DNA from: Allobosea sp. WAO
Lineage (GTDB): Bacteria; Pseudomonadota; Alphaproteobacteria; Rhizobiales; Beijerinckiaceae
DNA: 64,000 nt
Direction of reading: 5' to 3'
Assembly (NCBI RefSeq): GCF_001509835.1
Contig: NZ_JXTJ01000006.1
Span: 62,001 to 126,000 of the forward strand
Each line of letters opens with the position of its first letter. Position 1 is the first letter of the stretch. The notes beneath the pieces were generated by a model. It saw nothing but the letters and a program-made list of their open reading frames with translations, was not told the origin of the DNA and did not search any database. This document shows, piece after piece, positions 4,061 through 33,776 of the stretch. Made by a program: the position numbers and the translations under genes.

Positions 4061-6457
4061 TCACACCGGCGGCGGGTTCGCCTTGCGGATCCGCTCGCCG
4101 ATCGCCTGGAAGAGGCCTTCGAACGGCCGGAAGGTGAAGCGGATCGTCGAGCGGCCCGGCGGCACCTGCACGGCGCGGAAGATCACATTGGCACGCAGCA
4201 GCTCGGCCGGCTTGCCGTCGACCTCGACCTGCCACCAGGGCTGCCAGACATCGTTGAGGACGACGAAGCCGCCTGCGGGCGCCTCTGCCTCCAGCGTGAC
4301 GTCGGTGGTGCCGTAGTCGCGAATGCTCACCGTTCCCGGCCCGGCGGGCCCGCCCGGCAGCTTCGGCGGTGCCTTGTCGAGCAGCACGGTACGCCGCGGA
4401 TCGAAGCCCGCCGGCCATTGCCCGCTTTTCAGGATGGCGTCGAAATCGGCCTGCTGCGCACTCGTGACGAGCAGGACGCGCGGCAGGGCCCGCGGATTCT
4501 CGTAGATGAAGGCGTCGGCGGTCCGGGCGATCTGGATGAGGTCGCCGGGCTTCAGTGCCTTGTCGATCTCACCGACCGGCACGCCGGTGGCGATGAAGCG
4601 CAGGCCGAGCATGTCGGCGAGCAGCGAGCGGTAGGACGGCATCAGCGCCGAGAAGGTCCGCTGGTCGGGTAGCGCGACATGGTCGCCGGCGCCGGTGGCC
4701 GCGCTGTAGAGGCCCAGCCGCAGGGGATTGTAGCCGAGCGTATTGTCCAGCCCGTGGACCAGGCTGGCATTGGGCCAGTGGAAGTCGATGCCGGCGAGCT
4801 CGATGCGGTCGCGCCGGTCGGGACCGGCAGTGCGCGCGGTCTCGCGCTTGAGCAGGGCTATGGTCTCGTTCGTGCTGTCGGCGCGCAGGACCTCGTAGCG
4901 GGAGGTGGGCAGGGCGGTCGACTCGCTTGGGCCGTTGTTGACCGAGAGATCGATGGTCATGGTCATGGCGAGGATCAGCGTCGCGGCCATGCCGGCCCCC
5001 TGCAGAGCAAGGCCGCGCGCGGCGACGAGAGCGCCGGCGACCAGCAGAAGGCAGAGCGAGGCCGTGATCAGCGGCAATGCGGCGACAGCGAGCCGGCCCG
5101 TCGTCCAGGCGAGCCAGATGGCGAGGCCGAAGGCGGCGCCGAGCAGGGCGGCTTCCAGCGCGATCTGCCAGCGCCGGGGGCGCGGGGCGGTGTCGGTCAG
5201 GACGAGATGGATGAAGTAGCCGCCGAGGATGGCGAAGAGCGCGCCGAGGATGAAGAGCGCGTCGGCCGGCCGGCGATAGAGGTCGATGCCGGGTAGCGCC
5301 GCGAACATCACCTGGAAGCCCGGCGTATAGCGGCCGAGTGCGTAGACCAGCACCAGAATGGCGGCGACGCTGAGGGCGATGATCTCGCGCCGCCAGAGGC
5401 CGCCGCGCACCACCCCCACACCAATGATCATCAGCAAAGGCAGCAGGCCGAGATAGAGCACGCTCATATTGCGGGCGAGGTAGAGATCGACCGGGCCGAA
5501 GCGGGCCTCCCAGGCCGGGCTCGGCGGGCCCCAGAAATTCTCCAGCGGGCCGGCGGCGCCATAGAGATTGGCGATCAGCCCGGTGAGCAGTGAGGCCGGA
5601 TGCAACGAGCCCTTGCCGGCTCCGGCGAGGTCGATCATCGGCCGGTTGGATTCCTGGGCCAGGAAGGCGGTGAGCAGGATCGGTACGGCGGCGACCAGAA
5701 CCGCGCCGAGCACGCCGAGTGACAGCGGTATCAAGCTGCCCTTGAGGGCGCGCAGCGGCTGCTTCGCCATGGCGATCGCGGCGATGACGAGCCCTGCGAG
5801 GACATAGACGCCGATCAGCGCGACCTGGTCGCGCCCGAGCACCATGAAGCCGGCGACGATCCCTGCGAGGAAGCCATAGGTCCATGAACCGCGCTCCAGC
5901 GCCCGCGAGAGCAGCAGCAGCGTGACGGCGAAATAGGCCAGGCTCAGCACCTGCCCGACATGCTGGATGCGCCAGGCGGCCGAAGCCCCGAAGGCGAAGG
6001 CGAGGGCGCAGACCACGGCACCGCCCGGATGCCAGTTGCGGTCGCGGAAGACGAGGACGAGGCAGAGCGCGCTGACCAGCAGCGAGCCGAGCAGCGCGCC
6101 GTCGCTCCAGCGGAAATCCGGCGCCGGATTGATCAGCGCGATCAGCGCGAAAGGCGGCGAGAAGATCAGTGACTGCGGATCGGCGACCTGCGGCGAGCCG
6201 GCGAAGACGAAGGGCGTCCAGAACGGCGACAGCCCCTTGTGCAGGGCGCTGGCGAGGAACTGGAGCTGCGGGTGAAAATGCGCCTTGGCGTCCCAGGGCA
6301 CGGTGACGACGCCCGACAGCCAGGGCCAGGACAAAGCGAGCCAGGCGGCGCAGACGATCAGGAAGACCTTGGCGACAGGCCAGGGCGGGCTCACCGCCGC
6401 GAGATCGGACCGCTCTTGCTCGGACAGCTTCTGCTCGGACCGCTTCTGTTCGGACAT
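4061..6457 (-). CDS. Large polytopic membrane protein, YfhO-like
   Basis: The 798-residue protein starts with a hydrophilic, repetitive SEQKRSEQKLSEQER-type tail. About a dozen hydrophobic segments follow through residue 520, then a C-terminal extracytoplasmic domain of about 270 residues. The C-terminal part ends with the pattern GGFVVLNDVWQPWWQVEVDG and a PPG-S-I-R-F-F-PF strand, as in YfhO/GT-C-like proteins that act on lipid-linked sugars and teichoic-acid or exopolysaccharide decoration. The start at 6457 has an AGGAAG ribosome binding site; the longer reading from 6544 would overlap ribA. An acidic residue pair typical of GT-C enzymes is not obvious to me, so sugar transfer is inferred from resemblance only. 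Confidence 0.8.
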   Translation of the reverse strand: MSEQKRSEQKLSEQERSDLAAVSPPWPVAKVFLIVCAAWLALSWPWLSGVVTVPWDAKAHFHPQLQFLASALHKGLSPFWTPFVFAGSPQVADPQSLIFSPPFALIALINPAPDFRWSDGALLGSLLVSALCLVLVFRDRNWHPGGAVVCALAFAFGASAAWRIQHVGQVLSLAYFAVTLLLLSRALERGSWTYGFLAGIVAGFMVLGRDQVALIGVYVLAGLVIAAIAMAKQPLRALKGSLIPLSLGVLGAVLVAAVPILLTAFLAQESNRPMIDLAGAGKGSLHPASLLTGLIANLYGAAGPLENFWGPPSPAWEARFGPVDLYLARNMSVLYLGLLPLLMIIGVGVVRGGLWRREIIALSVAAILVLVYALGRYTPGFQVMFAALPGIDLYRRPADALFILGALFAILGGYFIHLVLTDTAPRPRRWQIALEAALLGAAFGLAIWLAWTTGRLAVAALPLITASLCLLLVAGALVAARGLALQGAGMAATLILAMTMTIDLSVNNGPSESTALPTSRYEVLRADSTNETIALLKRETARTAGPDRRDRIELAGIDFHWPNASLVHGLDNTLGYNPLRLGLYSAATGAGDHVALPDQRTFSALMPSYRSLLADMLGLRFIATGVPVGEIDKALKPGDLIQIARTADAFIYENPRALPRVLLVTSAQQADFDAILKSGQWPAGFDPRRTVLLDKAPPKLPGGPAGPGTVSIRDYGTTDVTLEAEAPAGGFVVLNDVWQPWWQVEVDGKPAELLRANVIFRAVQVPPGRSTIRFTFRPFEGLFQAIGERIRKANPPPV

Positions 6458-6524
6458 GGCGGCTTCCTGCCCCAGGCTCCGCACCGGATCAATGCCCGGC
6501 GCGGGTTCGCTGCCTGGAGCGAGG

Positions 6525-7652
6525 TCAATCCTTCGGGGCGGCACGCGCCATCAGCGCGTCCATGTCGATGAAATGGCCGGCGCGGTCGCGCTTCGAGGCG
6601 AGATAGCGGACATTGTGGATATTCGGGCGGCCGAGCACGCGCTGGGTCGCGGCGACCTCGAGCCCGGCAGCCTTGATCGCGCCGACCTTGAGCGGGTTGT
6701 TGGTCAGTGCCGTGACGCTGCTGACGCCTAGCTGCTTCAGCATCTCCGCTGCGAAGTCGAAATGGCGCTGGTCGAGATCGAAGCCGAGGACCTCGTCGGC
6801 GTCGTAGGTGTCCCAGCCCTGGCTCTGCAGCTTGTAGGCACGCATCTTGTTGGAGATGCCGTTGCCGCGGCCTTCCTGGTCGAGATAGAGCAGGATGCCG
6901 CCCTCGTTCTGCGCCATCCACTCGACGGTCTCGCGCAGCTGGTCGCCGCAATCGCATTTCAGCGAGCCGAACAGGTCGCCGGTCAGGCAGGCGGAGTGCA
7001 GGCGCACCGGCACGGCGGCCGAGAGGTCCGGCTTGCCGACGATGATCGCGACCTGATCGCGCAAGCCCTCGCCACCACGGAAGACCACGAATTCGGTATC
7101 GGGGGCGCCTTCCAGCGGAACCGGCGCACGGCCGACGATGGCGAGCGTTGCGACCTGGGCAGCGCGATAGCCGTTGATGGCGGCGATGGCGACCTCGACC
7201 AGGGGTTCCCCGGCGATCTGCGCCGCGGCGACCGGTACCAGGATGATGGCGGGCAGCACCAGCGCGAGACCGGCGAGCTCGAGCGCTGCGGCGTCGAGCG
7301 CGTTGGCGGGGCCGACCGGCGCATCGACGCGCGCATCGATCTTGAGGGCGAGGGTCTCGACACGGGCGATGTCGATCGCGGGCATGGCGAGGACGCCGGT
7401 TTCACTGCGTCCCTTCGCGCCGAGGCGGCGCAGGCGCGCGGCGCTCAGCACCAACCTGGCGTTACCTTCGGCAAGCGTGTCGAGCCGGCCGGCGATGTCG
7501 GCATCGGCGAGCTCGGCCGAGAGTGCCAAAGCGAGGTTCTCGCCGTCGCGCAGGAGGACGGGACGGCCGGCCCGGAATTCGGCGAGGGCCCGGTCGACTG
7601 CGATGATCTCGGTCTCGCCGGGACGGCCGAAAAGCGTACGCGACTTAGGCAT
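6525..7652 (-). CDS. ribA: GTP cyclohydrolase II with a degenerate DHBP-synthase-like N-terminal domain
   Basis: The 375-residue protein ends in a complete GTP cyclohydrolase II domain (about 185-375). The zinc ligands C222, C233 and C235 lie in CLTGDLFGSLKCDCGDQL. The substrate motif DQEGRGNGISNK follows, then LTNNPLKV and the HNVRYLASK tail. It converts GTP to 2,5-diamino-6-ribosylamino-4-pyrimidinone phosphate, the first step of riboflavin synthesis. The first 180 residues look like the fold of 3,4-dihydroxy-2-butanone-4-phosphate synthase (RibB), but the acidic signature DDEDRENEGD is replaced by LRDGENLALAL and the HTEAT motif is absent, so this half is probably inactive. The start at 7652 is the first ATG next to the conserved core; the upstream extension to 7781 looks non-coding. 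No other riboflavin gene lies nearby. Confidence 0.92.
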   Translation of the reverse strand: MPKSRTLFGRPGETEIIAVDRALAEFRAGRPVLLRDGENLALALSAELADADIAGRLDTLAEGNARLVLSAARLRRLGAKGRSETGVLAMPAIDIARVETLALKIDARVDAPVGPANALDAAALELAGLALVLPAIILVPVAAAQIAGEPLVEVAIAAINGYRAAQVATLAIVGRAPVPLEGAPDTEFVVFRGGEGLRDQVAIIVGKPDLSAAVPVRLHSACLTGDLFGSLKCDCGDQLRETVEWMAQNEGGILLYLDQEGRGNGISNKMRAYKLQSQGWDTYDADEVLGFDLDQRHFDFAAEMLKQLGVSSVTALTNNPLKVGAIKAAGLEVAATQRVLGRPNIHNVRYLASKRDRAGHFIDMDALMARAAPKD

Positions 7653-7922
7653 GGCTGCGTCCGTCAGATTGCGCCGGCTGGCGGCGGAGGAGATGGTCTT
7701 ATACGCTCGTCTGGGCGGGACGGATGCCATCCGGCGCAATACGGCGTTGCTACAACGTGTACGGTGGTGTGTGGTTCCCAAATTCGTGAGCCCGACCGGA
7801 TTTCAGGCGGCTTTCGACTGCGATCCGGTTGGCCGCAATCTGGCGTATAAGAACGGGACATTGAACACGAGATGAATGGCGGTGCCAGGCCCTGATCTGG
7901 GGTCTCGAGGGACGGATGCGAA

Positions 7923-8507
7923 ATGATCAGGGCACATGACCCCATGAGCGGGGTGGCAGGTCGTGCCGCCGTCTACAGCCCCGCGGCGCGGCGGTTCCAT
8001 TGGATCACGGTGGCGGCCGTCTTCATCATGATCCCGCTTGGCCTCGGCATGACCTATCGCGGCAACGCGCTCGATATCTGGGACGGGCTGACCAACGCGC
8101 TCTATTCCGCGCATAAGCTGCTCGGCTTCCTCGTGCTCTGGCTGACGGCGGGACGGCTGGCCTATCGGCTCCTGCACGGCTGGCCACCGGACGAGCCGAC
8201 GCTGGCCTGGTGGCACAAGGCCGCCTCCCATCTCGTCCATTGGGCACTCTATGGGCTGCTGCTGGTCGTGCCGTTGCTCGGCTGGATCGGCGTCTCGCTG
8301 TATCCCGCCCTGACGATCTTCGACCTGTTCAACCTGCCGGCGCTGGCCGCTCCGAACGAGGAGGCGGCGAAGCGCGTGCTCGCCCTGCATGGCTGGCTGG
8401 CGATCCTGCTCGCGCTCGCCATCTGCGGGCACATCGTCGCGGCGCTCTCTCACCATTTCATTCGCAAGGACGGCGTGCTGCGGCGCATGCTGCCGGGGCT
8501 GAGATAG
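7923..8507 (+). CDS. Cytochrome b561-family di-heme membrane protein
   Basis: The 194-residue protein has four transmembrane helices, each bringing a histidine suitable as heme ligand: FHWITVAAVF in helix 1, SAHKLLGFLVLW in helix 2, HLVHWALYGLLLV in helix 3 and LHGWLAILLALAICGHIVAAL near helix 4. This is the bacterial cytochrome b561 (CybB) pattern, a quinol-linked electron carrier of the inner membrane that can act as superoxide:ubiquinone oxidoreductase. An ATG at 7944 is a possible alternative start; the first ATG is kept because GAGGGA lies upstream of it. The gene stands alone: it is divergent from ribA across 270 bases and converges with the NUDIX gene. Confidence 0.88.
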   Translation: MIRAHDPMSGVAGRAAVYSPAARRFHWITVAAVFIMIPLGLGMTYRGNALDIWDGLTNALYSAHKLLGFLVLWLTAGRLAYRLLHGWPPDEPTLAWWHKAASHLVHWALYGLLLVVPLLGWIGVSLYPALTIFDLFNLPALAAPNEEAAKRVLALHGWLAILLALAICGHIVAALSHHFIRKDGVLRRMLPGLR

Positions 8508-20027: not shown

Positions 20028-20192
20028 GTCCATCCTTCGAAAGCGGAGCGGGCCGCCATGGTGAGCAGGGCGAGATGAACGCAGGCTGGCTGGCGCCTGC
20101 CCGCATCCCCCTCGCTTCATAAAGAAGGCCACGCGTCGGCGGAAGCGCGTGGCGATCCTGCCTTGCCGGCCAAACCGTTCGGATTGCTGCCG

Positions 20193-20951
20193 TCAGCGCG
20201 GCAGAAATGCGTAGACGTCGCCGGAATTCGCGGCGTGCGGGAGGTCGCGCAGATAGCTGCCCATCGCCTCGGCACCGACGGCCTCGGGAAAGACGAGCGT
20301 CTGGCTTTCGCCGAGCGCGACATTGAAGCGGTAGGGGCCGAGCGCCTCGACCAGCGCGAGGCAGGCCTCGGCGACGTCGCGCTGGATGGTGGTGAATTCG
20401 AAGGAGAGCGCCGCCGGCGTCCGGGTCAATCCGGCGAGGACATGCGCCTCGAAGCCCTCGACGTCGACCTTGATGAAGGCCGGCAGGCCGTGCTGGCAGA
20501 TCAGCGCGTCGAGCGTGGTGCTGGGAACTTCGAGCTCGCGATCCCAGATCTGCTCGCGCCAGCCATCGGCATCGACGGCGGCGCCGACGAAATCCGTCGA
20601 GACGGTCGAGACCGTCGGGTTCGCGCTGTTGATCCTGAGCGTCACCGTGCCCGGCCGGTCGCCGCAGGCGGCCTCGACCAGCGTGACGTCGGGGTCGCGG
20701 CCATGGATCAGCCGGATGGCGCGGGCCGGGCCGGGCTGCGGTTCGAGCGCCACGACGCGGGCGCCGAGTCGGCGAAAACTGGAGATGCGGTCGCCGACAT
20801 GCGAGCCGATATCGAAGGCAAGGTCGCCAGCTTTCAGGAAGCGCGCATAGAGCGCGTCCATGGCGGCGTTGCGGGCGCTATCGCCATGGTAGACGCGCAG
20901 CGAGCGCGACAGGCTCTTGGCGGTGCCCCTGGGGTAGGCGACGGGCTTCAT
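20193..20951 (-). CDS. FkbM-family SAM-dependent methyltransferase
   Basis: The 252-residue protein has a Rossmann-type SAM site (LAFDIGSHVGDRIS near residue 45), an acidic strand end VVALEPQPG and the FkbM hallmark FIKVDVEGFEAHVLAGL near residue 165. It should O-methylate a sugar or similar hydroxyl. The start ATG at 20951 overlaps the stop of opgH (ATGA), so the enzyme is translationally coupled to the glucan synthase. Inference: it may modify the periplasmic glucan or its lipid-linked precursor, although FkbM proteins more often act on nodulation factors, antibiotics and glycans generally. A longer frame to 21656 is antisense-like in character and is excluded. Confidence 0.87.
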   Translation of the reverse strand: MKPVAYPRGTAKSLSRSLRVYHGDSARNAAMDALYARFLKAGDLAFDIGSHVGDRISSFRRLGARVVALEPQPGPARAIRLIHGRDPDVTLVEAACGDRPGTVTLRINSANPTVSTVSTDFVGAAVDADGWREQIWDRELEVPSTTLDALICQHGLPAFIKVDVEGFEAHVLAGLTRTPAALSFEFTTIQRDVAEACLALVEALGPYRFNVALGESQTLVFPEAVGAEAMGSYLRDLPHAANSGDVYAFLPR

Positions 20952-22774
20952 TTCGGCTCGTCCGCCTGGACGGCGACGAGCTCGGGCGGCGGGTCGAAAT
21001 CCTCGGGAATGCCGCAAAGGCCGCGGCGCGCGAACCAGCGCCCGAGCGCGGGGGAGGCGGTGAGCATGGCGAAGGGGATGGCGAGGACATAGCCGGCCGT
21101 CAGCGGCAGCGACCAGATCAGCACCGTCGGCGAGAGCAGAGCGAGCGTGCCGAAGATGTAGAGACCGAAGAGCAGATGCGGCCAGAGCCCCGCGAAGGCG
21201 GTGGCGAAGGAGAGGGCGTGGGCGTCGCGGGCCTGGCCGTTCCAGCCGATCTTCGCCTTGCCGAAGGCGAGGCCGACCATGAAGATCGTCGTGCGGAAGG
21301 TCGAGACCGCGCCCTGCAGGAAGGCGAAGACGACCTCGATCAGGGAGGAGACGAGGAAGCGCCCGGTGCCGCCATAGCGCTTCGTGCCGCCCTTGCTGAG
21401 CAGGATGTCGGCGAAGCCGGCGAGCTTCGGCGAAAGATACATGGCGAAGAACAGCACATAGAAGAAGGCGGCGAAGCCGGCCGGATAGGCGGCGAGGCCG
21501 CGATCCTCCCAGACCTTGAGCGGCAGGAGCGCGATCATCAGCGTCCAGGCCGGCAGGCCGATGAACATCAGGATCGCCCAGGCGAGCTGGAAGCGGCTCA
21601 TGAACTTGAGCCCCGGAATATCCATCAGCTTGAGATATTGCAGGTTGCCGAGGCACCAGCGCAGGTCGCGCTTGGCGAATTCGAGCATGGTCGGCGGGTT
21701 TTCCTCCCAGCTGCCCATCTCGACCGGCAGCACCCGGACCTCGTAGCCGGCGCGGCGCATCAGCGTCGCCTCGACCTGGTCATGGCTCATGACGGGGCCG
21801 CCTAGCGGCGGACCGCCGGGCAGGACCGGCAGATGGCATGCGTCACGGAAGGGCGCGATCCGGACCAGGGCGTTATGCCCCCAGAACGGTCCGCAATCGC
21901 CGATCCACCAGGCTGAGCCCATCGTATAGGGCCGCATGCCGTGGCGCATGCCGAACTGGAAAATGCGGGCAAAAGCGGACTTGCTCGGCATGCCAACCAC
22001 AAGGCTCTGCAGGATGCCGAGCTTCGGCAAGGCCTGCATCATCCGCGTCATCCTGACGATGGCGTCACCGGACATGACGCTATCGGCGTCGAGCGGCAGC
22101 ATCAGCTCGTAGCGGTCGCCCCAGCGCTCGCAGAAATCGCGGACATTGCCGGCCTTGTAGCCGGCATTGTCGGTGCGGCGGCGATAGGTCAGGCGCGAGG
22201 CGTCGCCGATCGTCGCGGCGAAGGCGGCGGCGAGCTTCTCCTCGGCCTCGGTCACGGCGGCGTCGTTGGTGTCGGAGAGCACGAAATAATCGAACCAGGC
22301 GCCTTCGCCGGTCGCGTCAAGGCTCTGCTTGACGATGGCGAGCCGGCGGAAGGCGCGGGCCGGGTCCTCGTTGCGCAAGGTCATCAGGATCGCCGTGCGG
22401 ATGGCGAGCGGCGTCGGTTCGTCGCCGGCCGCTGCGAAGGGCGCGACCCGCTCGAGCCCGTCCTCGACGCCATGCAGCAGCCAGAGGCCGATCGCTGCAT
22501 TCCAGAAGCCGAGCACCGTCCAGGGCGCGCCGACCAGGAAGGCGATGAAGATCACGATGTCGGCGAGGCTCCAGCCGCCGGCCACCAGCACATGGGCGAG
22601 GCCGTAGAGCAGGGCGGCGAGCGTCGCGAGGTTGAGACCTGCGACTAGCAGGCGGCGCAGGCGCAGCACCGCGGTGCGCTGCATGCCAGCCGGCGTGAAG
22701 CCTCTCTTGTCCCCGGCATCATTGCGCTCTTGCGCCGCCGCCTGGAACGTGTTCGGACCGGGGCGCTGGTTCAT
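20948..22774 (-). CDS. opgH: Glucans biosynthesis glucosyltransferase (MdoH/OpgH)
   Basis: The 608-residue inner-membrane protein has two N-terminal helices (about 40-100), a cytoplasmic GT2 domain, and five or six C-terminal helices. GT2 motifs include FVLSDTNDAAV, the metal/UDP site LPLDADSVMSGD, HDQVEATLMRRAGYEV and the acceptor motif KRDLRWCLGNLQYLKL. It builds the beta-1,2-glucan backbone of osmoregulated periplasmic glucans from UDP-glucose. The start at 22774 follows AGAGA; ATG 22789 is an alternative, and the frame to 23092 overlaps the divergent gene. E. coli OpgH is longer (about 850 residues). The usual partner opgG is not in the window; instead fkbM overlaps the 3' end. Confidence 0.88.
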   Translation of the reverse strand: MNQRPGPNTFQAAAQERNDAGDKRGFTPAGMQRTAVLRLRRLLVAGLNLATLAALLYGLAHVLVAGGWSLADIVIFIAFLVGAPWTVLGFWNAAIGLWLLHGVEDGLERVAPFAAAGDEPTPLAIRTAILMTLRNEDPARAFRRLAIVKQSLDATGEGAWFDYFVLSDTNDAAVTEAEEKLAAAFAATIGDASRLTYRRRTDNAGYKAGNVRDFCERWGDRYELMLPLDADSVMSGDAIVRMTRMMQALPKLGILQSLVVGMPSKSAFARIFQFGMRHGMRPYTMGSAWWIGDCGPFWGHNALVRIAPFRDACHLPVLPGGPPLGGPVMSHDQVEATLMRRAGYEVRVLPVEMGSWEENPPTMLEFAKRDLRWCLGNLQYLKLMDIPGLKFMSRFQLAWAILMFIGLPAWTLMIALLPLKVWEDRGLAAYPAGFAAFFYVLFFAMYLSPKLAGFADILLSKGGTKRYGGTGRFLVSSLIEVVFAFLQGAVSTFRTTIFMVGLAFGKAKIGWNGQARDAHALSFATAFAGLWPHLLFGLYIFGTLALLSPTVLIWSLPLTAGYVLAIPFAMLTASPALGRWFARRGLCGIPEDFDPPPELVAVQADEPK

Positions 22775-22835
22775 GGCGGTCTCTGTCATGCGATGGGCTG
22801 AGCTGAAGCTGCAGGGAACGTCGCGGAGGGTCAGC

Positions 22836-23834
22836 GTGATAGAACCGGCAAAGCCCGCCAAGGCAAGCGGCAAAGCGGCTGCGACCGCGCTCTGGTATGT
22901 CGGTCCGCGTGAATGCGCCCTGAACGATGTCGAATTGACGCAGCGCGGTGCCGAGGACTGCCTCGTCCGGACGCTGTGGAGCGGCATCAGCCGCGGCACG
23001 GAACGGCTGGTCTTCGAGGGGAGGGTGCCGCCCGCGGAGCATGAACGCATGCGGGCGCCGTTCCAGGAGGGGGCGTTCCCGTTCCCGGTCAAATACGGCT
23101 ACTGCGCCGTCGGGATTGTCGAGGAGGGGCCTTCGGCGCTGATCGGCGAGACGGTGTTCTGCCTGCATCCTCATCAGGATCGCTTCGTGGTGCCGGCGAG
23201 CCGTGTCGCGATCGTGCCGAAGGCCGTGCCGGCGCGGCGCGCCGTGCTCGCCGCCAACATGGAAACCGCGCTCAACGCGCATTGGGATGCCGGCTCCGGC
23301 CCGGCCGATCGCATCGTCGTGGTCGGTGGCGGCGTGCTCGGCCTGCTGACCGCCTTCATCGCCGCGCGGCTGCCGGGCGCAGAGGTGACATTGGTCGATG
23401 TCGATCCTGCCCGCGCTGCATTGGCAGAGGCGCTCGGCTTCGGCTTCGCTCTGCCACCAGACGCTCCGGGGGATGCCGACCTCGTCTTCCACGCCAGTGC
23501 CAGTGCGGCGGGGCTCGCGACTGCGATCGGCGCTGCCGGCTTCGAAGCCCGGATCGTCGAACTCAGCTGGTATGGCGAGGGCGCGGTCGCGGCCCCGCTG
23601 GGCGGGGCCTTCCATTCGAGGCGGCTGCAATTGGTTTCGTCGCAGGTCGGGCAGGTTTCGCCCTCGCGCCGGCCGCGCTTCGATTATGCCCGCCGGACGC
23701 AGGCGGCGCTCGCATTGCTGGCGGATGAGCGGCTCGATGCGCTGATCTCGGAGGAGATCGCATTCAGGGATGCGCCGGCGCATCTGCCGGCGCTGTTCGC
23801 CGGCAGCGGCATCACGGCGGTGCTGCGCTATTGA
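22836..23834 (+). CDS. MDR-superfamily dehydrogenase without catalytic-zinc ligands (BchC-like)
   Basis: The 332-residue protein is an MDR dehydrogenase. The nucleotide site is IVVVGGGVLGLLTAFIAA (about residues 166-183), with an Asp after the next strand (TLVDVDPA) that favours NAD. The usual zinc ligands (Cys in CGxD and the GHE motif) are missing. In their place it reads WSGISRGTERLVFEG and KYGYCAVG, resembling the SGISxGTE motif of BchC rather than zinc alcohol dehydrogenases. The GTG start at 22836 has GGAGG seven bases upstream. It heads a cluster in one direction with a PTPS-like gene, a GT4 and a methyltransferase. It is divergent from opgH across only about 60 bases. Confidence 0.85.
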   Translation: MIEPAKPAKASGKAAATALWYVGPRECALNDVELTQRGAEDCLVRTLWSGISRGTERLVFEGRVPPAEHERMRAPFQEGAFPFPVKYGYCAVGIVEEGPSALIGETVFCLHPHQDRFVVPASRVAIVPKAVPARRAVLAANMETALNAHWDAGSGPADRIVVVGGGVLGLLTAFIAARLPGAEVTLVDVDPARAALAEALGFGFALPPDAPGDADLVFHASASAAGLATAIGAAGFEARIVELSWYGEGAVAAPLGGAFHSRRLQLVSSQVGQVSPSRRPRFDYARRTQAALALLADERLDALISEEIAFRDAPAHLPALFAGSGITAVLRY

Positions 23835-23896
23835 CCTTGAAGGGTAGGCAGAAGCGCGCGACGGGCTTAAGCAGACTGCGCTGAAGGAGACTGCCC

Positions 23897-24298
23897 ATGT
23901 TTTCCGTCGAAGTCCGCGACCGCATCATGATCGGCCATTCGCTGCCCGATCCCTTCTTCGGCCCGGCGCAGGCCATGCATGGCGCGACCTTCGTCGTCGA
24001 TGTCGCCTTCTTCCGCGAGAACCTGACGCGGCACAACGTGGTCGTCGATATCGGCGCGGCGCTATCCGTGCTGAATGAGACGCTGAAGCCGCTGAACTAT
24101 AAGAATCTCGACACGCTGCCGCAGTTCCGGGACGTGCTGACCACCACCGAATTCCTCTGCAAGTACATCTTCGATGCGATGGCGGCGGCGGCCCGCTCCG
24201 GCAAGCTCGGCGCGGACGCGGCCGATCTCGCAAAGATCCGCGTCACCCTGCACGAGACCGACCTTGCCCGCGCCAGCTATGAGGGCGCGCTCGCGTGA
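23897..24298 (+). CDS. Atypical 6-pyruvoyl-tetrahydropterin synthase-like protein
   Basis: The 133-residue protein has the tunnelling-fold pattern of PTPS/QueD. H14 (IGHSL) and H28 (MHGATF) match two zinc-binding His, NTTEFL-like TTTEFLCKYIF matches the substrate PTxE motif (E85), and HETDLARASYEG at 119-130 provides the substrate Glu. Key positions differ: the third zinc His is A30, the catalytic Cys near residue 25 is absent, and the Asp-His dyad (LDHxxLN) is replaced by L66-N67-Y68. Canonical QueD activity is therefore unlikely without compensation. It follows the MDR gene by 62 bases and overlaps the GT4 start as GTGA. A second role in pterin-like chemistry is inferred. Confidence 0.85.
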   Translation: MFSVEVRDRIMIGHSLPDPFFGPAQAMHGATFVVDVAFFRENLTRHNVVVDIGAALSVLNETLKPLNYKNLDTLPQFRDVLTTTEFLCKYIFDAMAAAARSGKLGADAADLAKIRVTLHETDLARASYEGALA

Positions 24299-25347
24299 GC
24301 GAGATCGTCTTCGCCATCCCCGGCGATCTTACGCTGCCTACCGGCGGCTACGGTTATGATCGACGGCTGTTGGCGGAGTGGGAAGCGATGGGGGTGTCGG
24401 CACGCCATCTCGGACTCCCCGGCAGCTTCCCGGCGCCGAGCGAGGCCGATCTCGCCGAGACCGGCAGGGCGATCCTGTCGCAGCCCTATGAGAGCGTGCT
24501 GCTGATCGACGGGCTGGCCTATGGCGCCTTTCCGGAAGGCATCGCCGCCGGGCTCGCCGGACGCGTCGTCGCGCTGGTGCATCATCCGCTCGGCCTCGAG
24601 GCGGGCCTGCCCCCGGAGCGCGCCGCTGCCCTGCTGGCCAGGGAGACGGCGGCGCTGCGCTATGCCAGCGCAGTGATCGTAACCAGCCAGAGCACCAAGA
24701 GGCTGCTGGTCGCTGATTTCGACGTGCCGGAAGCCCGGATCACTGTGGCTGAGCCCGGCGTCGACCCGGCGCCGCGCGCCGTCGGCTCACAGGCGGGGGC
24801 GCCGCTGCAACTGCTGGCCGTGGGCTCGCTGGTGCCGCGCAAGGGCTATGACGTGCTGGTCGCGGCGCTTGCCGGGCTCGAGGATCGCAGCTGGCGCCTG
24901 ACCATCATAGGCGTGGCGGATCGCGCGCCCACGACCGCGGCGGCGCTTGCGGCCCAGATCGCGGAGGCGGGTCTTGGCGACCGTATCCATCTCGCCGGGG
25001 CGGTCGATCAGCCGTCGCTGGAAGCGGCCTATGCCGCCGCCGATCTCTTCGTCATGCCCTCGCTGTTCGAGGGCTACGGCATGGTGTTGACCGAAGCCCT
25101 GGCGCGCGGTTTGCCGATCCTATGCACCACCGGCGGAGCTGCCGCCGAGACGGCGCCGGATGCCGCCGCGCTCAAGGTTCCGCCCGGCGACATTGCCGCG
25201 CTGGGGGCTGGGCTCGTCCGCCTGCTCGACGATGCCGGGGAGCGCAGAAGCCGCTCCGATGCAGCCTGGCATGCAGCAGGTGCATTGCCGCGCTGGCGAG
25301 ACACCGCGACAATCGTCGCGCAAACCTGTGCGAAGGTGTCACCATGA
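24295..25347 (+). CDS. GT4-family glycosyltransferase
   Basis: The 350-residue protein has a GT-B fold. The N-domain contains PTGGYGYDRRL, a His-rich VALVHHPLGLE strand and TSQSTKRLL. The C-domain shows VGSLVPRKGYDVLV, a donor site YAAADLFVMPSLFEGYGMVLTEA (split here by sense) with the E-x7-E type motif, and TTGGAAAE. It transfers a sugar from a nucleotide donor to an unknown acceptor. The start is GTG overlapping the PTPS-like stop (GTGA) and the end overlaps the methyltransferase start (ATGA), so three gene products are probably made in fixed ratio. Given its neighbours the acceptor may be a pterin-like or redox-active small molecule; that is inference. Confidence 0.88.
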   Translation: MSEIVFAIPGDLTLPTGGYGYDRRLLAEWEAMGVSARHLGLPGSFPAPSEADLAETGRAILSQPYESVLLIDGLAYGAFPEGIAAGLAGRVVALVHHPLGLEAGLPPERAAALLARETAALRYASAVIVTSQSTKRLLVADFDVPEARITVAEPGVDPAPRAVGSQAGAPLQLLAVGSLVPRKGYDVLVAALAGLEDRSWRLTIIGVADRAPTTAAALAAQIAEAGLGDRIHLAGAVDQPSLEAAYAAADLFVMPSLFEGYGMVLTEALARGLPILCTTGGAAAETAPDAAALKVPPGDIAALGAGLVRLLDDAGERRSRSDAAWHAAGALPRWRDTATIVAQTCAKVSP

Positions 25348-26183
25348 GTGGATTCTCCCCGGACTGGCTCGCCTTGCGCGAGCCGGCCGACCATGCCGCC
25401 CGCAACCCGCAGGTGCTGGCTGCGGTCGGTGCCGCCTTTGCCAGTCGGCAGTCGCTGACCATCGTCGACCTCGGCTGCGGCGCGGGCTCGAATCTGCGCG
25501 GCACCTATTCTGCGCTGCCGGCGCGCCAGTACTGGACGCTGGTCGATTTCGACCCGGCCCTGCTGGCCGTGGCCCGCGAGCGCCTCACCGCCTGGGCCGA
25601 CGAGGCGGAGGCGCTGGGCGAGGAGCTGGTGCTGCGCAAGGGCGACAAGTCGCTGACCGTCGATTTCCGCAAGGCCGATCTCAACACCGATCTGGAATGG
25701 GTGCTCGGCTGGCAGCCGGACCTCGTCACCGCCGCCGCGCTGTTCGACCTGACCTCGGTACGCTGGCTCGAGCGTTTCGTCGCCTCGCTGGCGAGTCAGC
25801 GCCTGCCGCTCTACACCGCGCTGACCTATGACGGGCGTGAGAGCTGGGAGCCGGCCCACCCCGCCGATGCGAAGATGCTGGCCGCTTTCAACCACCACCA
25901 GCACAGCGACAAGGGTTTTGGCCCTGCCGCCGGCCCGGAAGCGACCGAGACGCTGGCGCAGGCCTTCCGCAAATCGGGCAGCGCCGTTACCGTGGGCGAG
26001 AGCCCCTGGGTGCTGGACGCCGGCAGCGCCGCGCTGACGCGCGAGCTCACGGCCGGCATCGCAGCGGCAGTGGCGGAGACCGGCCATGTCGATGCGGAGA
26101 CGATCGCGAGCTGGCTCGCGGCGCGTGCCAAGGCGGGTTCCGGCCGGATCGGCCATCAGGACCTCTGGGCCCGGCCGGTCTGA
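25344..26183 (+). CDS. Class I SAM-dependent methyltransferase
   Basis: The 279-residue protein has motif I VDLGCGAGSN near residue 38, an acidic motif II at TLVDFDPALLAV, and DLVTAAALFDLTS as motif IV. The C-terminal third contains NHHQHSDKGFGPAAG, a His-rich segment that may shape the substrate pocket. It closes the four-gene cluster, starting inside the GT4 stop codon (ATGA). It probably methylates the product of the preceding enzymes. A longer frame back to 25122 overlaps the GT4 gene and is ignored. The next gene, an acetyltransferase, follows after 68 bases and may or may not belong. Confidence 0.87.
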   Translation: MSGFSPDWLALREPADHAARNPQVLAAVGAAFASRQSLTIVDLGCGAGSNLRGTYSALPARQYWTLVDFDPALLAVARERLTAWADEAEALGEELVLRKGDKSLTVDFRKADLNTDLEWVLGWQPDLVTAAALFDLTSVRWLERFVASLASQRLPLYTALTYDGRESWEPAHPADAKMLAAFNHHQHSDKGFGPAAGPEATETLAQAFRKSGSAVTVGESPWVLDAGSAALTRELTAGIAAAVAETGHVDAETIASWLAARAKAGSGRIGHQDLWARPV

Positions 26184-26863: not shown

Positions 26864-28951
26864 TCACCCCTCGCGCTTGAACCTGCGGCCGCTCTCGCCG
26901 ATCCAGCCGGCGACCAGCGCGCCGAACAGCAAAGCGAGACCGATCAGCCCGATGAACAGCGGGGAGATCTGCACGCCGCGGACGATGCCGGAATCGCTGA
27001 TGCGCAGGCCGATCCAGTCGGCACCGGCGAATTGCCGGCCCGAGCGCACGGGCACGATGCGCGGCACGCTGACGCCCGAGCCGTTCTCCTGGCCGATACG
27101 GCGCGAGGAGCCGCCGGTCGCTTCCGCCAACGCCTGCAGCTGGGTGGGGTCGCTGACCACCTCCATCAGCTCGCGTGGGTTCTCCGGGCCGACGCTGGCG
27201 AAGGCGGTGAGGTTCTCGCTGGTGACCTTGTGCAAGCCGAACTCCGTCGTCGCCGTGCGGGCGGTGAACAGGCCGGGGCGGCCGGGCTCGAAGGGCACGG
27301 TGCGGGTCGAGCCGTCGGGAGCGGTGATCGTCGCCGGGGCCGGCGCATCGCCCAAGGTCTGGCGTTCGATCTCGAGATTGCGACCGCGGGCGACGGCGCG
27401 CAGCGCCTCCTCCTCCAGGTCCGGCTCCTTCATCAGCCAGTGGCCGAGCCGGCGCAGCAAATCGAGATGCGGACCGCCATCGCGGAAGCCGCGGGCCCAG
27501 AGCCAGGCATGGTCGGAGAGGAAGAGGGCGACGCGGCCCTTCTGCTCGCGTGCCAGCATCAAAAGCGGGCGCTCGCCCGGACCGGTCATCACGGCCGAGC
27601 CGGTACGGGCGCGGGCGCCGACCATGCGCAGCCATTCGCCCCAGCGCGGCGGCTCGACCTCGGCGCCCGGCAGGTCGCGGGTGACCGGGTGGCGGCGGCC
27701 GGGCTCGCTGACGCGGGCGCGGTAGGCCTCGTCGATGACGCTGCCATCGGGCTGCGCCGGCAGGATCTGGCCGAGCGGCGTACGCGCGAGCGATTGCGAG
27801 CCGGAATATTCCGGGCCGGCGGCGACCAGCAGGGCGCCGCCCTCGCGGACATAGCGGACGATGTTGTCGAAGTAGAGCAGCGGCAGGATCGACTGGTTGG
27901 CGTAGCGGTCGAAGATGATCAGGTCGAAATCCCTGATCTTGACCTGGAACAGCTCACGCGTCGGGAAGGCTATCAGCGAGAGCTCGTTGATCGGCGTGCC
28001 GTCCTGCTTCTCCGGTGGGCGCAGGATGGTGAAGTGGACCAGGTCGACATTGGCGTCGGCCTTGAGCAGATTGCGCCAGGTGCGCTCGCCCGGATGCGGC
28101 TCGCCCGAGACCAGCAGCACGCGCAGCTTGTCCCTGACGCCCTCGATGGTGATGACGGCGCGGTTGTTGGCGAGCGTCAGCTCGTTGTCGAGTGGCGCGG
28201 CCTCGATCTCGACGACGTTCGGCCCGCCGCGGTCGATCCTGACCGGCACCTGCACCGTCTGCCCGGCGATGACCTCGCGGCGCGCGATGACCTCGCCGTC
28301 GCGGCGCACGGTGAGCGCGGCGCGGCCCGGGCCGCCCTTCTCGACGACGCGCAGGCGGATGTTCTGATCCTTGCCGACGATGCCGAAGCGCGGAGAATCG
28401 ACGAGCACGATGCGCCGGTCGATCTCGCGCTCGCGGCCGGTGGTCAGAACGTGCAGCGGGGCGCGCAGGCCGAGTGCTTCGGCATTGGCCGGTGCATCAT
28501 GGGCGAGGCCGTCGGTGATCACGATCGCTCCCGCGACGCGCTCGGAGGGAACGTCGGCGAGGCTGGAGGCCAGCGCCTCGAACAGCCTTGTGCCGTCGCC
28601 GGCGCCCTGCGCATCGGTGACCTCGACGGTACGCGTCTCGACTCCGCTGACGCCGCGCAACTGGTTCTCGACCTCGGCCTGGGCGGCCTGCGTCTGCGCA
28701 CTGCGATCGGAGAGGCGGTTCGAGCCGGAGCGGTCGACGACGACGGCGACGACGTCCTTGACCGGCTCGCGCTCCTCGAAGACCAGCGACGGGTCGGCGA
28801 GGGCGATGGTCAGTACGGTCAACGCCAGGGCGCGCAGGATGGCGCTGCGGCCGGCGAGCACCAGCGCCGCGCCGGCGGCGAGCGCGGCCAGCACCGCGAG
28901 CCCGATCAGCAGCGGCAGCGGCACCAGCGGGGCGAAGGTCAGGCTCCACAT
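26864..28951 (-). CDS. Membrane protein with VWA and glutamine-amidotransferase-like domains
   Basis: The 695-residue protein has two N-terminal transmembrane helices (about 7-60). A VWA-like domain follows with a metal-site motif DRSGS (VVAVVVDRSGSNRL) and VITDGLAHD. After a beta-rich region comes a class I amidotransferase-like domain (FDLIIFDRYANQSILPLLY, then REGGALLVAAGPEYSGS), without an obvious catalytic Cys. A C-terminal helix (LFIGLIGLALLFGALVAGW) precedes a short basic tail. It is the last gene of moxR-DUF58-DUF4159, 35 bases after the DUF4159 gene. It is probably part of a membrane complex controlled by MoxR; its role is unknown. The ribosome binding site is weak. Confidence 0.8.
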   Translation of the reverse strand: MWSLTFAPLVPLPLLIGLAVLAALAAGAALVLAGRSAILRALALTVLTIALADPSLVFEEREPVKDVVAVVVDRSGSNRLSDRSAQTQAAQAEVENQLRGVSGVETRTVEVTDAQGAGDGTRLFEALASSLADVPSERVAGAIVITDGLAHDAPANAEALGLRAPLHVLTTGREREIDRRIVLVDSPRFGIVGKDQNIRLRVVEKGGPGRAALTVRRDGEVIARREVIAGQTVQVPVRIDRGGPNVVEIEAAPLDNELTLANNRAVITIEGVRDKLRVLLVSGEPHPGERTWRNLLKADANVDLVHFTILRPPEKQDGTPINELSLIAFPTRELFQVKIRDFDLIIFDRYANQSILPLLYFDNIVRYVREGGALLVAAGPEYSGSQSLARTPLGQILPAQPDGSVIDEAYRARVSEPGRRHPVTRDLPGAEVEPPRWGEWLRMVGARARTGSAVMTGPGERPLLMLAREQKGRVALFLSDHAWLWARGFRDGGPHLDLLRRLGHWLMKEPDLEEEALRAVARGRNLEIERQTLGDAPAPATITAPDGSTRTVPFEPGRPGLFTARTATTEFGLHKVTSENLTAFASVGPENPRELMEVVSDPTQLQALAEATGGSSRRIGQENGSGVSVPRIVPVRSGRQFAGADWIGLRISDSGIVRGVQISPLFIGLIGLALLFGALVAGWIGESGRRFKREG

Positions 28952-28986
28952 CGGCTAGAATTCCAATCCCATGCCGGTCCGCCGCA

Positions 28987-31809
28987 TCACTGCCCGAGCC
29001 TTTCGAGCAGGGCCGGGACGTGAACCTGGTCGGCCTTGTAGTTGCCGGTAAGGGCGTACATCACGAGGTTGACGCCGGCGCGCAGAGCCATTTCGCGCTG
29101 GCGTGGATCGCTGCCCGACATCGGCACCAGCGCCTCGCCGCGCCGGCCGACTGCCCAGGCCGAAGCGAGATCGTTGGAGGTGATGACGATCGGCGAGACG
29201 CTGTCGCCGGCGCGGGCCGGGCGCCGGCCATCCTCGCCCGCCGGCGGCAGGATCTCGACCCAGGTCGTGCCGGTGTCATAGCGGCCGACGAAGCCGTCGA
29301 GGATGTAGAAGGTCTTGGTCAGGACGTGGTCGCGCGGGATCGGCTCCAGCTCCGGAATGTCGAGCGTCTGCAGCATGCGCCGGAGCTGGTCGCCCTCGGG
29401 CGTTGCGCCGCCGCCGGGCCGGGAGCTCATCGCATCGCGGGTGTCGAAGATCACGAGGCCGCCGCCCTTCATATAGGCTTCGAGCTTGCGCAGGGTCTCG
29501 GCCGAGGGGATTGGCCGCCCGGCGACGACCGGCCAGTACAGGATCGGGAAGAAGGCGAGCTCGTCGCGGGCGACGTCGACGCCGACGGCTTCGCCCGGCT
29601 CGAGCGCGGTGCGGGCGCCGAGCACGATGTTGAGCCCGGCCAACCCGGCCTTCGACATGTCGTCAACCGCCTTGTCGCCGGTGACGACATAGGCGAGGCG
29701 CGTGACCGCTCCGGCGGCGAAGAGCTCGCGCGGGATCGGCGGGCGCTGGTCGGCCGGCGCGGCGGGCACGGGGGCGGGCTGCTGCGCCAGCAGAGGCTGG
29801 GGCAGCGCAAGCAGGCCGAAGCCGAAGGCGAGCAGGAGCGCGACAGGCGCGGCGCGCCGGCGGGCGATGTTGAGCCGCCCGCCGAGCCAGAGCGTCGCCA
29901 GCGTGTCGGCGACGAGGAGGACGAGCGCCAGCACGAGAAGCAGCGGCCGGATATCCTTCGCCACCGGCTGGTCGACCGGCAGCAGCGGCGCACCGAGCGA
30001 AGCGAGATCGAGGGCGGCGAGCGTGTCGGCCGGAGCGAGCGTGTTCACGGCCATGGTTCCGTCGCTGGGCCCGTAAATGCCGGGCGGATGCGCCAGGATC
30101 GCACGGCCGGTGAAGCTGCGCGGTACCGGCTGGGCCGTCACCGGCGGACTGCGGAAGGCGCCGAGCCCATCGAGGACGCGGGTCGGCGACAAGGTCTCGA
30201 CCCGGGCATCGCCCGCCTGCGGCTCGGCGGCATTGGCCCCGGACAGCGAGACGATCTTGCGCAGCATCTCGACGAAGAGGCCGGAGAGCGGCAGGTTCGA
30301 CCAGGTCGTGTCGGCGGTGACGTGCATCATCGCGAGCATGCCGTCGCCGCGGCGTTCGCCGGTGACGACCGGCGTGCCGTCCTCCAGCGCCGCCCAGGTT
30401 TTGCGGGCGAGGTCGGCCTCGGGCTCGGCCAGGATCTGGCGGCTGACGCGGATCTCGTCGCTGATCTGGGCGCCGAAGAAGGGGCTCTCGCGGTTGAACG
30501 GGGCGAGCTTGCGCGGCGTCTCCCAGGACAGGCCGCCGCCGAGCGTGCGTCCGCCGCGGCGCAGGCGCACCGGCGTCAGCTCGTCGGAGGCCGCGGCCAG
30601 GCGCGCGCCGGCGAAGCGCAGCAGCACGCCGCCGCGCTCGATGAAGGCGTTGACCTTGTCGGCGGTATCGCGGTCGAGCGCGCCGATATCGGCCAGCACC
30701 AGCACGGAGAGATTCTGGGCCAGCAACTCGCCGATCGGGTCGGTCGAGCCGGCACGCGGCTCGCGGATCTCGGCGAAGGGGGAGAGCGCCCGCGAGACGT
30801 AGTAGGTCGGGGAGAGCAGGGGCTGGGCGGTATCGGCGGTGGCGCCGGAGACGATGCCGACGCGGCGCCGCTTGGCACGGTCATCGAGCAGCGCGACCGC
30901 TCCGGCGCTGCGCTCGCCGACGATCTCGAGCCGGGAGACGGCGTTGCGGACCTCGATCGGCAGGGTGAGCCGGGCGCTGGTCTGCAGTTCCGTGGCGCCG
31001 AAGACGAAGGGGGCGTCGCCGAGCGGCAGGCCCTTGAGGTCGAGCGCCCGGACCTGGCCACTGGCGGCGGCATTCACGCTCGGACGCAGCACCTTGACGG
31101 TGAGTGCGCCGGCGAGGTTCTCAGGTGCGGTCAGCGCGAGCTGGTCGGCCGGGCTGGTATGGATCGACAGGCGTCCCGCCGAGGCTTCCTGCCGCATTCT
31201 TGCGAGGAAATCATCGTCGCCGCCGAGCCCAAGCCCGTCGGCGATCCAGACGGTTTCGGCCTGCGGCTGGGCGCGCCAGAAGGCTTCGAGGCGCTGGAGA
31301 TGCGCGCCGCGATCGGGCGCATGGGGCTGCAGCGAAAAGGCGCGCAGGCGCTCGACCGCGGCGCGCGGCTCGGACAGCGCGATCTCGGCCGGAGCTTCGG
31401 CGAGGCCGACGAGCGCAACGGCGCGGCCGTCGCGGGCTGCGGCGGCGACGCGGTTCTCAGCGATCGCCAGCCGCTCCGTCCAGTCGGTCGCGGCGCCGAA
31501 GCCATTGTCGATCACCAGCAGCATCGGGCCGCGCAGGGCCGCAGCGTCGCGCACCGGGTTCCAGACCGGGCCGGCGACGGCGAGGATCGCGAGCGCCGCC
31601 ACCGCCATGCGTAGCGCCAGCAGCCACCAGGGCGTGTGAGCCGGCATTTCGCGCTTGGCGACGAGGTCGCGCATGATCTTCAGCGGCGGGAAATCGATCC
31701 GGCGCGGACGCGGCGGCGTGACCCGCAGTATCAGCCAGAGCGCCGGCAGCAAGGCGAGCGCGATCAGGGCCAGCGGGGCTGAGAAGGCGATCGGTAGGGA
31801 TGACAGCAT
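28987..31809 (-). CDS. DUF4159 protein with BatA-like N-terminus
   Basis: The 940-residue protein opens with a double-transmembrane BatA-type domain (LALIALALLPALWLILR, PRRIDFPPLKIMRDL, then a second helix near residue 75). A VWA-like region lacks the DxSxS metal motif (LLVIDNGFGA). An amidotransferase-like segment (VLVLADIGALDRDTADKV, FIERGGVLLRFAG) follows. A transmembrane helix near residues 655-690 precedes a C-terminal DUF4159 domain with FPILYWPVVAGRPIP and GGGLVIFDTRDA. GAGGGAGGG lies before the ATG, 13 bases after the DUF58 stop. The protein resembles the rhizobial member of MoxR clusters. Function unknown; a scaffold in the periplasm and membrane is inferred. Confidence 0.82.
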   Translation of the reverse strand: MLSSLPIAFSAPLALIALALLPALWLILRVTPPRPRRIDFPPLKIMRDLVAKREMPAHTPWWLLALRMAVAALAILAVAGPVWNPVRDAAALRGPMLLVIDNGFGAATDWTERLAIAENRVAAAARDGRAVALVGLAEAPAEIALSEPRAAVERLRAFSLQPHAPDRGAHLQRLEAFWRAQPQAETVWIADGLGLGGDDDFLARMRQEASAGRLSIHTSPADQLALTAPENLAGALTVKVLRPSVNAAASGQVRALDLKGLPLGDAPFVFGATELQTSARLTLPIEVRNAVSRLEIVGERSAGAVALLDDRAKRRRVGIVSGATADTAQPLLSPTYYVSRALSPFAEIREPRAGSTDPIGELLAQNLSVLVLADIGALDRDTADKVNAFIERGGVLLRFAGARLAAASDELTPVRLRRGGRTLGGGLSWETPRKLAPFNRESPFFGAQISDEIRVSRQILAEPEADLARKTWAALEDGTPVVTGERRGDGMLAMMHVTADTTWSNLPLSGLFVEMLRKIVSLSGANAAEPQAGDARVETLSPTRVLDGLGAFRSPPVTAQPVPRSFTGRAILAHPPGIYGPSDGTMAVNTLAPADTLAALDLASLGAPLLPVDQPVAKDIRPLLLVLALVLLVADTLATLWLGGRLNIARRRAAPVALLLAFGFGLLALPQPLLAQQPAPVPAAPADQRPPIPRELFAAGAVTRLAYVVTGDKAVDDMSKAGLAGLNIVLGARTALEPGEAVGVDVARDELAFFPILYWPVVAGRPIPSAETLRKLEAYMKGGGLVIFDTRDAMSSRPGGGATPEGDQLRRMLQTLDIPELEPIPRDHVLTKTFYILDGFVGRYDTGTTWVEILPPAGEDGRRPARAGDSVSPIVITSNDLASAWAVGRRGEALVPMSGSDPRQREMALRAGVNLVMYALTGNYKADQVHVPALLERLGQ

Positions 31810-31822
31810 GGCTCGCCCTCCC

Positions 31823-32737: not shown

Positions 32738-32747
32738 CAGCTTTCCC

Positions 32748-33776
<1,029 letters not shown>

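Follow-up and report, generated by a model that had tools for sequence, protein, structure and literature searches.

The archaeal ArfA-B-C route to riboflavin combines a cyclohydrolase, a deformylase (ArfB, a creatininase-family enzyme that deformylates the cyclohydrolase intermediate) and a reductase. In toxoflavin biosynthesis, a GTP cyclohydrolase II (GCHII), a RibD-type protein and a methyltransferase feed a product that is not a flavin, and in the making of cyanobacterial pterin glycosides a glycosyltransferase acts on a GTP-derived compound. Here we analyze a gene set that resembles each of these in part. Four genes at positions 22836-26183 (+ strand) of a 64,000-nucleotide stretch of the Allobosea sp. 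WAO genome (contig NZ_JXTJ01000006.1, positions 62,001 to 126,000; the whole stretch is termed the window) encode a medium-chain dehydrogenase/reductase (MDR), a protein like 6-pyruvoyl-tetrahydropterin synthase (PTPS) that belongs to the PTPS-IV subfamily, a GT4 glycosyltransferase and a class I S-adenosylmethionine (SAM) methyltransferase. Conservation of this set far exceeds chance, and the pathway that it encodes appears to be entered via the riboflavin branch.

The known systems also differ from the present set. Neither PTPS-IV nor the MDR protein, GT4 or the present methyltransferase is known to take part in the ArfA-B-C route, and the cyanobacterial pterin glycosides, in contrast to what we describe here, are built on GTP cyclohydrolase I (GCHI) and a canonical PTPS. 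We know of no PTPS-IV, MDR or GT4 in toxoflavin biosynthesis, where the likeness is in the kinds of enzyme described. The PTPS-IV subfamily of COG0720 was reportedly described by Phillips in 2012. The BrbF/BrbG riboflavin route of Sinorhizobium, in which the creatininase-family BrbF deformylates the intermediate, shares the logic of cyclohydrolase, deformylase and reductase with the present set, and in the sections of the report covered here it too leads to riboflavin with no part for the four core proteins (PMC9478397). It is already in print since 2017, in the AGeNNT paper, that PTPS-IV neighborhoods contain PF00925 and PF01872; the paper names PF00925 "GTP cyclohydrolase I / FolE2", whereas the Pfam name is GTP cyclohydrolase II, and an operon of MDR, GT4 and methyltransferase is not described in the parts of the main text covered, supplements aside (PMC5445326). 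Our literature search found no product for, and no study of, the MDR-PTPS-IV-GT4-methyltransferase set. The set is a variant combination of known kinds of enzyme and is not categorically new.

Conservation of the four-gene set

All four reading frames are open, and the last three genes overlap, by GTGA between the PTPS-like and GT4 genes and by ATGA between the GT4 and methyltransferase genes. An earlier reading of this DNA, made from the letters alone (the sequence-only reading), had placed four genes of these families in one direction here, with these overlaps, and both its coordinates and its families hold. It had also stated beforehand that its proposal would be refuted if the four genes did not occur together elsewhere, and we found that they do.

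Genome loci were taken from the best 80 of 222 PTPS matches, so that close relatives are over-represented in counts from them; fairer counts came from a 150-genome sample of the order and from one locus per positive family (19 families). Gene order could be scored in 68 of the 80 loci, 12 being dropped because their flanks were too short, and the order and strand MDR-PTPS-GT4-methyltransferase were kept in 66 of the 68; the two exceptions (L061 and L077) each had no MDR match. All four genes stood in order in 19/19 families. In the sample of the order, PTPS-IV was present in 42 of 150 genomes and 26 of 87 genera, one of the 42 matches being partial (55 residues covered, genome G077). Each of these 42 genomes carried the MDR gene, 41 of them at ≤0.5 kb from PTPS-IV and one (G141) at 5 kb on the same contig and strand; among the 108 genomes that had no PTPS-IV, three gave MDR matches, weak or partial. 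In genome G102, which is devoid of PTPS-IV, a partial MDR (144 aa matched; G102:C12:184805-185236) accompanies a RibA match, perhaps as a decayed cluster.

The set also occurs on plasmids. The PTPS gene was found in 20 of 72,556 plasmid records, from Streptomyces, Arthrobacter, Microbacterium, Thiodictyon, Rhizobiaceae, Rhodobacterales and Methylosinus, and the full four-gene order in 12 of the 18 of these 20 records that were examined, including Streptomyces, Microbacterium and Thiodictyon. All 16 plasmid records with an MDR match (E≤1e-30) were PTPS-IV records. Distance matrices of PTPS correlated with those of five other genes (r 0.60-0.72, reached by 0 of 2000 permutations), which may mostly reflect shared descent. 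In three Streptomyces plasmids (L095, L104 and L106), PTPS-IV lies each time among cupin, sigma-factor and BTAD-regulator genes, and the protein may have a second use there.

The MDR-family gene (22836..23834, +, GTG start; BchC-like) may begin later, since BLAST homology and model confidence both set in near residues 13-19. Zinc MDR alcohol dehydrogenases bind their catalytic zinc through a conserved Cys and have a GHE motif. In contrast, no position of the window protein family carries an invariant or nearly invariant Cys (21 aligned sequences; YGY stands at 87-89), which means that the family has not kept the usual Cys ligands of zinc, and its ADH_zinc_N match (24.4 bits) is below the cut-off of 31.8. 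A fold search with its AlphaFold model (pLDDT 89.9) returned MDR enzymes as the best 50 matches, threonine and polyol dehydrogenases among them, at 13-20% identity. The GT4 glycosyltransferase (24295..25347, +) matches PF13692 (98.5 bits) and PF00534 (96.8 bits), both above cut-off. The class I SAM methyltransferase (25344..26183, +) barely passes Methyltransf_25 (27.1 bits, cut-off 27.0) and has no NCBIfam match; D42, G44, G46 and G48 of its GxGxG motif are invariant in 23 sequences. Its model (pLDDT 95.8) gave 772 PDB matches at E≤0.001, the best 50 mostly methyltransferases and the nearest fold, 3mgg, only 12-13% identical. As modelled, both the MDR protein and the methyltransferase have fold-level neighbors only, which give no hint of a substrate.

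Loss of the canonical active site in PTPS-IV

The PTPS-like protein (23897..24298, +; PF01242, 74 bits) is a T-fold protein of COG0720 that is 93-96% identical to its counterparts in several Bosea genomes. Its best PDB match, full-length with an E value of 1e-36, is 3d7j, the SCO6650 protein of Streptomyces coelicolor, which belongs to the PTPS-IV subfamily like the window protein and is labelled uncharacterized. We aligned 100 rows of PTPS-IV, two of them being the window gene. Residues F, G and A of the FGPAQ stretch occur in 100/100 rows, P in 99/100 and Q in 97/100; the AGeNNT paper (PMC5445326), citing Zallot 2016 (PMC5041015), gives FGPAQ as the PTPS-IV signature in the parts covered. 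His14, Gly22, Ala24, His28, Ala30, Asp51, Tyr68, Thr84, Glu85 and Glu120 never vary.

Alignment to solved PTPS and QueD structures showed which residues have been replaced, with residue roles (zinc histidines and Asp-His pair) as in rat PTPS. His28-Gly-Ala30 aligns with the zinc-binding His-Gly-His, the second zinc histidine being Ala in 100/100 rows (HGA for HGH), and Asn67-Tyr68 aligns with the catalytic Asp-His, the histidine position being Tyr in 100/100. The Cys positions are Gly22 and Ala24, again in every row, and the Thr-Thr-Glu stretch is retained. Compared with canonical PTPS (PTPS-II, CxxxxxHGH) and QueD (PTPS-I, CxxxHGH), the window protein thus has neither motif nor the catalytic Asp-His. 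Judged by these residues, PTPS-IV falls outside the known kinds of pterin synthase.

These losses bear on two pathways that the PTPS family name would suggest. In the classical pterin pathway, GCHI would yield dihydroneopterin triphosphate, PTPS would convert it to pyruvoyl-tetrahydropterin, the MDR protein would act as reductase and GT4 would form a pterin glycoside as in cyanobacteria. A PTPS fold, a dehydrogenase and a glycosyltransferase do occur together here, and animal PTPS chains match the window protein weakly (E 4e-4 to 6e-7). However, the loss of the Cys, of one zinc His and of the catalytic Asp-His pair makes ordinary pterin chemistry unlikely, and the cyclohydrolase that co-occurs is GCHII; FolE, QueE and QueC are annotated in none of 10 plasmid clusters, which is weak evidence given their incomplete gene tables. 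We consider this pathway distinctly improbable, and canonical PTPS catalysis was rejected on the lost motif and catalytic residues.

The second is an F420 or deazapurine (queuosine-like) pathway. PTPS-IV is said, in an unpublished statement mentioned in the covered parts of Zallot et al. (PMC5041015), to act in archaeal F420 synthesis. Against this, CofH (TIGR03551) has no match in the window genome, which is rated 100% complete (6.1 Mb, 42 contigs, with the window on contig C39), and on this ground the F420 route was rejected. The deazapurine route was likewise discarded, on the absent CxxxHGH motif of QueD and on annotated neighbors, the QueC and QueE of the incomplete plasmid tables just mentioned. 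Either pathway is highly improbable. Labels of PTPS-IV proteins as "6-carboxytetrahydropterin synthase" (queuosine) look misleading, as the tie of PTPS-IV to GCHII and a RibD-type reductase (below) suggests.

Association with riboflavin-branch genes

Many relatives of the window locus carry, 3' of the methyltransferase gene, genes for a cytochrome b561, a stand-alone RibD-type reductase and a RibA-type GCHII; the whole set is present in L065 (Rhabdaerophilum) and in L118, whose genome belongs to the family of the window organism. In the sampled order, the stand-alone reductase (E≤1e-40) occurred in 31 of the 42 PTPS-IV genomes versus 0 of the 108 others, and the RibA-type GCHII (E≤1e-60) in 22 of 42 versus 4 of 108. 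Six more genomes matched the reductase query at E 1e-25 to about 1e-30, with frames of 392-486 aa that resemble housekeeping RibD. In genome G060, reductase and RibA are neighbors but lie 4.4 Mb along the contig from PTPS-IV (about 0.6 Mb were the contig circular and closed), and in G065 and G097 their distance from PTPS-IV is 56-60 kb, so close linkage alone does not explain the co-occurrence. On plasmids, PTPS-IV was present in 13 of the 14 RibD-type reductase records (E≤1e-15); the remaining one is a Bacillus ribD.

This association allows an alternative in which PTPS-IV is a base deaminase, or a similar tailoring enzyme, acting after the RibD-type reductase in the archaeal/fungal step order, and the cluster maintains a separate pool of 5-amino-6-ribitylaminouracil, a compound also required for F420 synthesis, for secreted flavins, lumazines or a metabolite derived from ARP. 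The reductase is indeed stand-alone, that of L065 (L065:10909-11682) having a RibD_C domain only, and three cluster reductases reach 102-116 bits against the archaeal reductase model TIGR01508, whose cut-off is 186. PTPS-IV would then be located just where a deaminase is required, and the unpublished F420 role mentioned by Zallot et al. (PMC5041015) would fit. On the other hand, no deaminase motif turned up, in analyses not aimed at finding one, and a methyltransferase and GT4 in the operon imply more than flavin supply. We know of no T-fold deaminase, and we regard this alternative as unlikely.

In the window genome, the genes for cytochrome b561, RibA and a protein of 827 aa form a block that has been moved and inverted (4061-8507), the first two genes lying ~14-15 kb to the left of the MDR gene. 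Of the PF00925/PF01872 neighborhood seen across relatives, the window has RibA at that distance, and the cluster-type RibD is absent from the genome. Cytochrome b561 (7923..8507, +) scores 92 bits on PF01292, and RibA (6525..7781, -; start possibly later) scores 497 bits on NF006456 (cut-off 464) and has the CDC cysteines (CLTGDLFGSLKCDCG in the translation) and the RAY-motif tyrosine. The third gene (4061..6544, -) encodes a candidate membrane protein, weakly YfhO/PMT-like with Pfam scores below cut-off; homologues occur in 41 of 80 loci, after RibA in the three examples L018, L056 and L062.

Elsewhere in the genome, the RibBA protein (L003, G000:C2) keeps its RibB part, its GCHII part having neither the CDC cysteines nor the QEGR motif. 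Apart from the housekeeping RibD, one RibD_C protein is encoded, which is short, lies on contig C1 and gave no match to the cluster-type reductase query. The genome has four creatininase-family matches, none within the window, so a BrbF-type route may also exist. A third, divergent GCHII relative (L004, G000:C23; 62.8 bits) resembles the uracil-catabolism type (URC1).

Streptomyces clusters appear to open the pathway in another way. Both Streptomyces clusters having RibA (L089 and L105) encode a GCHII in which Met replaces the Tyr, with a creatininase-family gene directly adjacent in each; in the other 17 of 19 GCHII matches the residue is Tyr in 16, and the motif is unreadable in L122. Spoonamore and Bandarian reportedly found that SCO6655, a Tyr-to-Met variant, goes no further than the formylated intermediate. 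We infer that the Streptomyces creatininase-family protein deformylates the cyclohydrolase intermediate; that of L089 has only 37 bits against a cut-off of 180 for the ArfB model, and its best score, likewise below cut-off, is on MftE. In the parts of the sources covered, SCO6655 stands in a list of S. coelicolor genes that are described as being, for the most part, upregulated in stationary phase (PMC2853524), and SCO6652 (identity unchecked) in a table of S. coelicolor expression changes (PMC3610822).

Genes flanking the core

Divergent from the MDR gene, ~50 bp from its start, lies an MdoH-type glucosyltransferase gene (20948..22786, -; NF003963, 915 bits, cut-off 884; start codon approximate), which is followed with an ATGA overlap at its stop by an FkbM-family methyltransferase gene (20193..20951, -; TIGR01444, 79.5 bits for 20193-20924, cut-off 37.7). 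MdoH matches occur in 72 and FkbM matches in 66 of the 80 genome loci. The osmoregulated glucan pair, MdoG beside MdoH, was not seen at the locus, where MdoH adjoins FkbM; four MdoG matches are on contigs C10, C4, C41 and C34, away from C39. This weakens the view that MdoH here belongs to the ordinary glucan pair of the cell.

We compared these neighbors in 34 loci: the window, L065, one representative of each of the 19 families and 13 of the 18 plasmid loci. MdoH was found in 19 and a CDP-alcohol phosphatidyltransferase in 11, never together, and 4 loci had neither. The genes might be an envelope module that builds a cell-surface glycolipid or glucan and has recruited the PTPS-like protein for an unrelated reaction. 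This mutual exclusion speaks for it, as does the presence of MdoH close to the core in 15/19 families. Clusters from Streptomyces, Microbacterium, Thiodictyon and Rhizobiaceae have the phosphatidyltransferase, to which those from Rhizobiaceae add flippase-like and sulfatase genes, and this speaks for it as well. But such a module would leave the link to RibD and RibA unexplained, and the set of phosphatidyltransferase, sulfatase and cytochrome b also occurs on plasmids that have no PTPS-IV match, which makes its link to PTPS-IV looser. We dismissed the phosphatidyltransferase as a strict partner of PTPS-IV for that reason, and an envelope module of this kind has, in our estimate, a low probability. 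The plasmids in question include those of Paracoccus (L116:7135-10066) and Qingshengfaniella (L117:7794-15708), with no PTPS-IV on the record.

Beside FkbM and MdoH, positions 19044-20132 (-) encode a protein of 362 aa that belongs to no family, begins like a signal peptide and has a homologue in 66 of 80 loci. On the other side of the core, 26864-33776 (-) holds a MoxR-type operon whose genes, all in one direction, encode a MoxR ATPase, a DUF58 protein and two long proteins, of which one is weakly GATase1-like. An Rfam scan of the window at the gathering threshold and a tRNA scan were empty.

Discussion

The sequence-only reading had proposed a small-molecule cluster making a modified pterin- or deazapurine-like compound. 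Its first half, a dedicated cluster, is strongly supported by the wide co-occurrence; an origin in classical pterin or deazapurine synthesis lacks support, with the Cys, the second His of HGH and the Asp-His pair lost and with GCHII and a RibD-type reductase as partners. We give about an even chance to a GCHII-fed, dedicated pathway that would branch off early riboflavin synthesis and lead to a glycosylated, methylated 2-aminopyrimidine or pteridine, a pteridine product being possible.

Along this pathway, the RibA-type GCHII would convert GTP to 2,5-diamino-6-ribosylaminopyrimidinone 5'-phosphate; in Streptomyces, the Tyr-to-Met variant and the creatininase-family protein appear to do this opening step. 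In most relatives, the stand-alone reductase would convert the ribosyl to a ribityl group, and since it has no RibD deaminase part, the guanine-derived 2-amino group may remain. The Thr-Thr-Glu stretch and late invariant Glu of PTPS-IV would be expected to hold this 2-amino edge. We favor closure of a second ring by PTPS-IV, giving a pteridine, or else it may alter the base, possibly by deamination. Redox chemistry by the MDR protein, methylation by the methyltransferase and glycosylation by GT4 would follow, and envelope enzymes might finish the product, MdoH-type glucosyltransferase and FkbM here and CDP-alcohol phosphatidyltransferase elsewhere. Of all this, the genes present, their order, their co-occurrence and the residue losses are observed, whereas each reaction, like the product, is inferred.

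Several observations weigh against the proposed pathway. The cluster-type reductase was not found in the window genome, where its query matches only the housekeeping RibD (36% identity), and our expectation of one there had to be given up; the housekeeping RibD, another reductase or the unreduced ribosyl compound would have to serve in this organism. At the thresholds used, the reductase is missing in 11 of the 42 PTPS-IV genomes, and both reductase and window-type RibA in 5. The window RibA could simply serve riboflavin, possibly as its main role, because the RibBA on contig C2 has lost its cyclohydrolase cysteines. L131 has Tyr together with a creatininase-family gene (about 30% identical) just past RibA, by which a strict rule of Met variant with creatininase and Tyr without was rejected, and L123 has such a gene far away. 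Among plasmids, PTPS-IV stands with no other core gene in L095, L104 and L106, GT4 is displaced in L096 and missing beside the core in L098, and no methyltransferase match was found in L103. Finally, the Fisher and Mantel figures ignore relatedness.

A bolder form of the proposed pathway would make its product an envelope-attached redox or light-absorbing cofactor of a new class, namely a GCHII-derived, ribityl-bearing 2-amino-pteridine that is glycosylated, fixed to glucan (MdoH type) or phospholipid (CDP-alcohol phosphatidyltransferase type, with ribityl phosphate used like glycerol phosphate) and served by cytochrome b561. We think this quite unlikely.

In summary, a gene set for a metabolite is present in 42 of the 150 genomes that we sampled from one order and on plasmids of Actinomycetota and Gammaproteobacteria. 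The tie of PTPS-IV to GCHII and a RibD-type reductase offers a defined starting compound in vitro, which makes the function of PTPS-IV directly testable.

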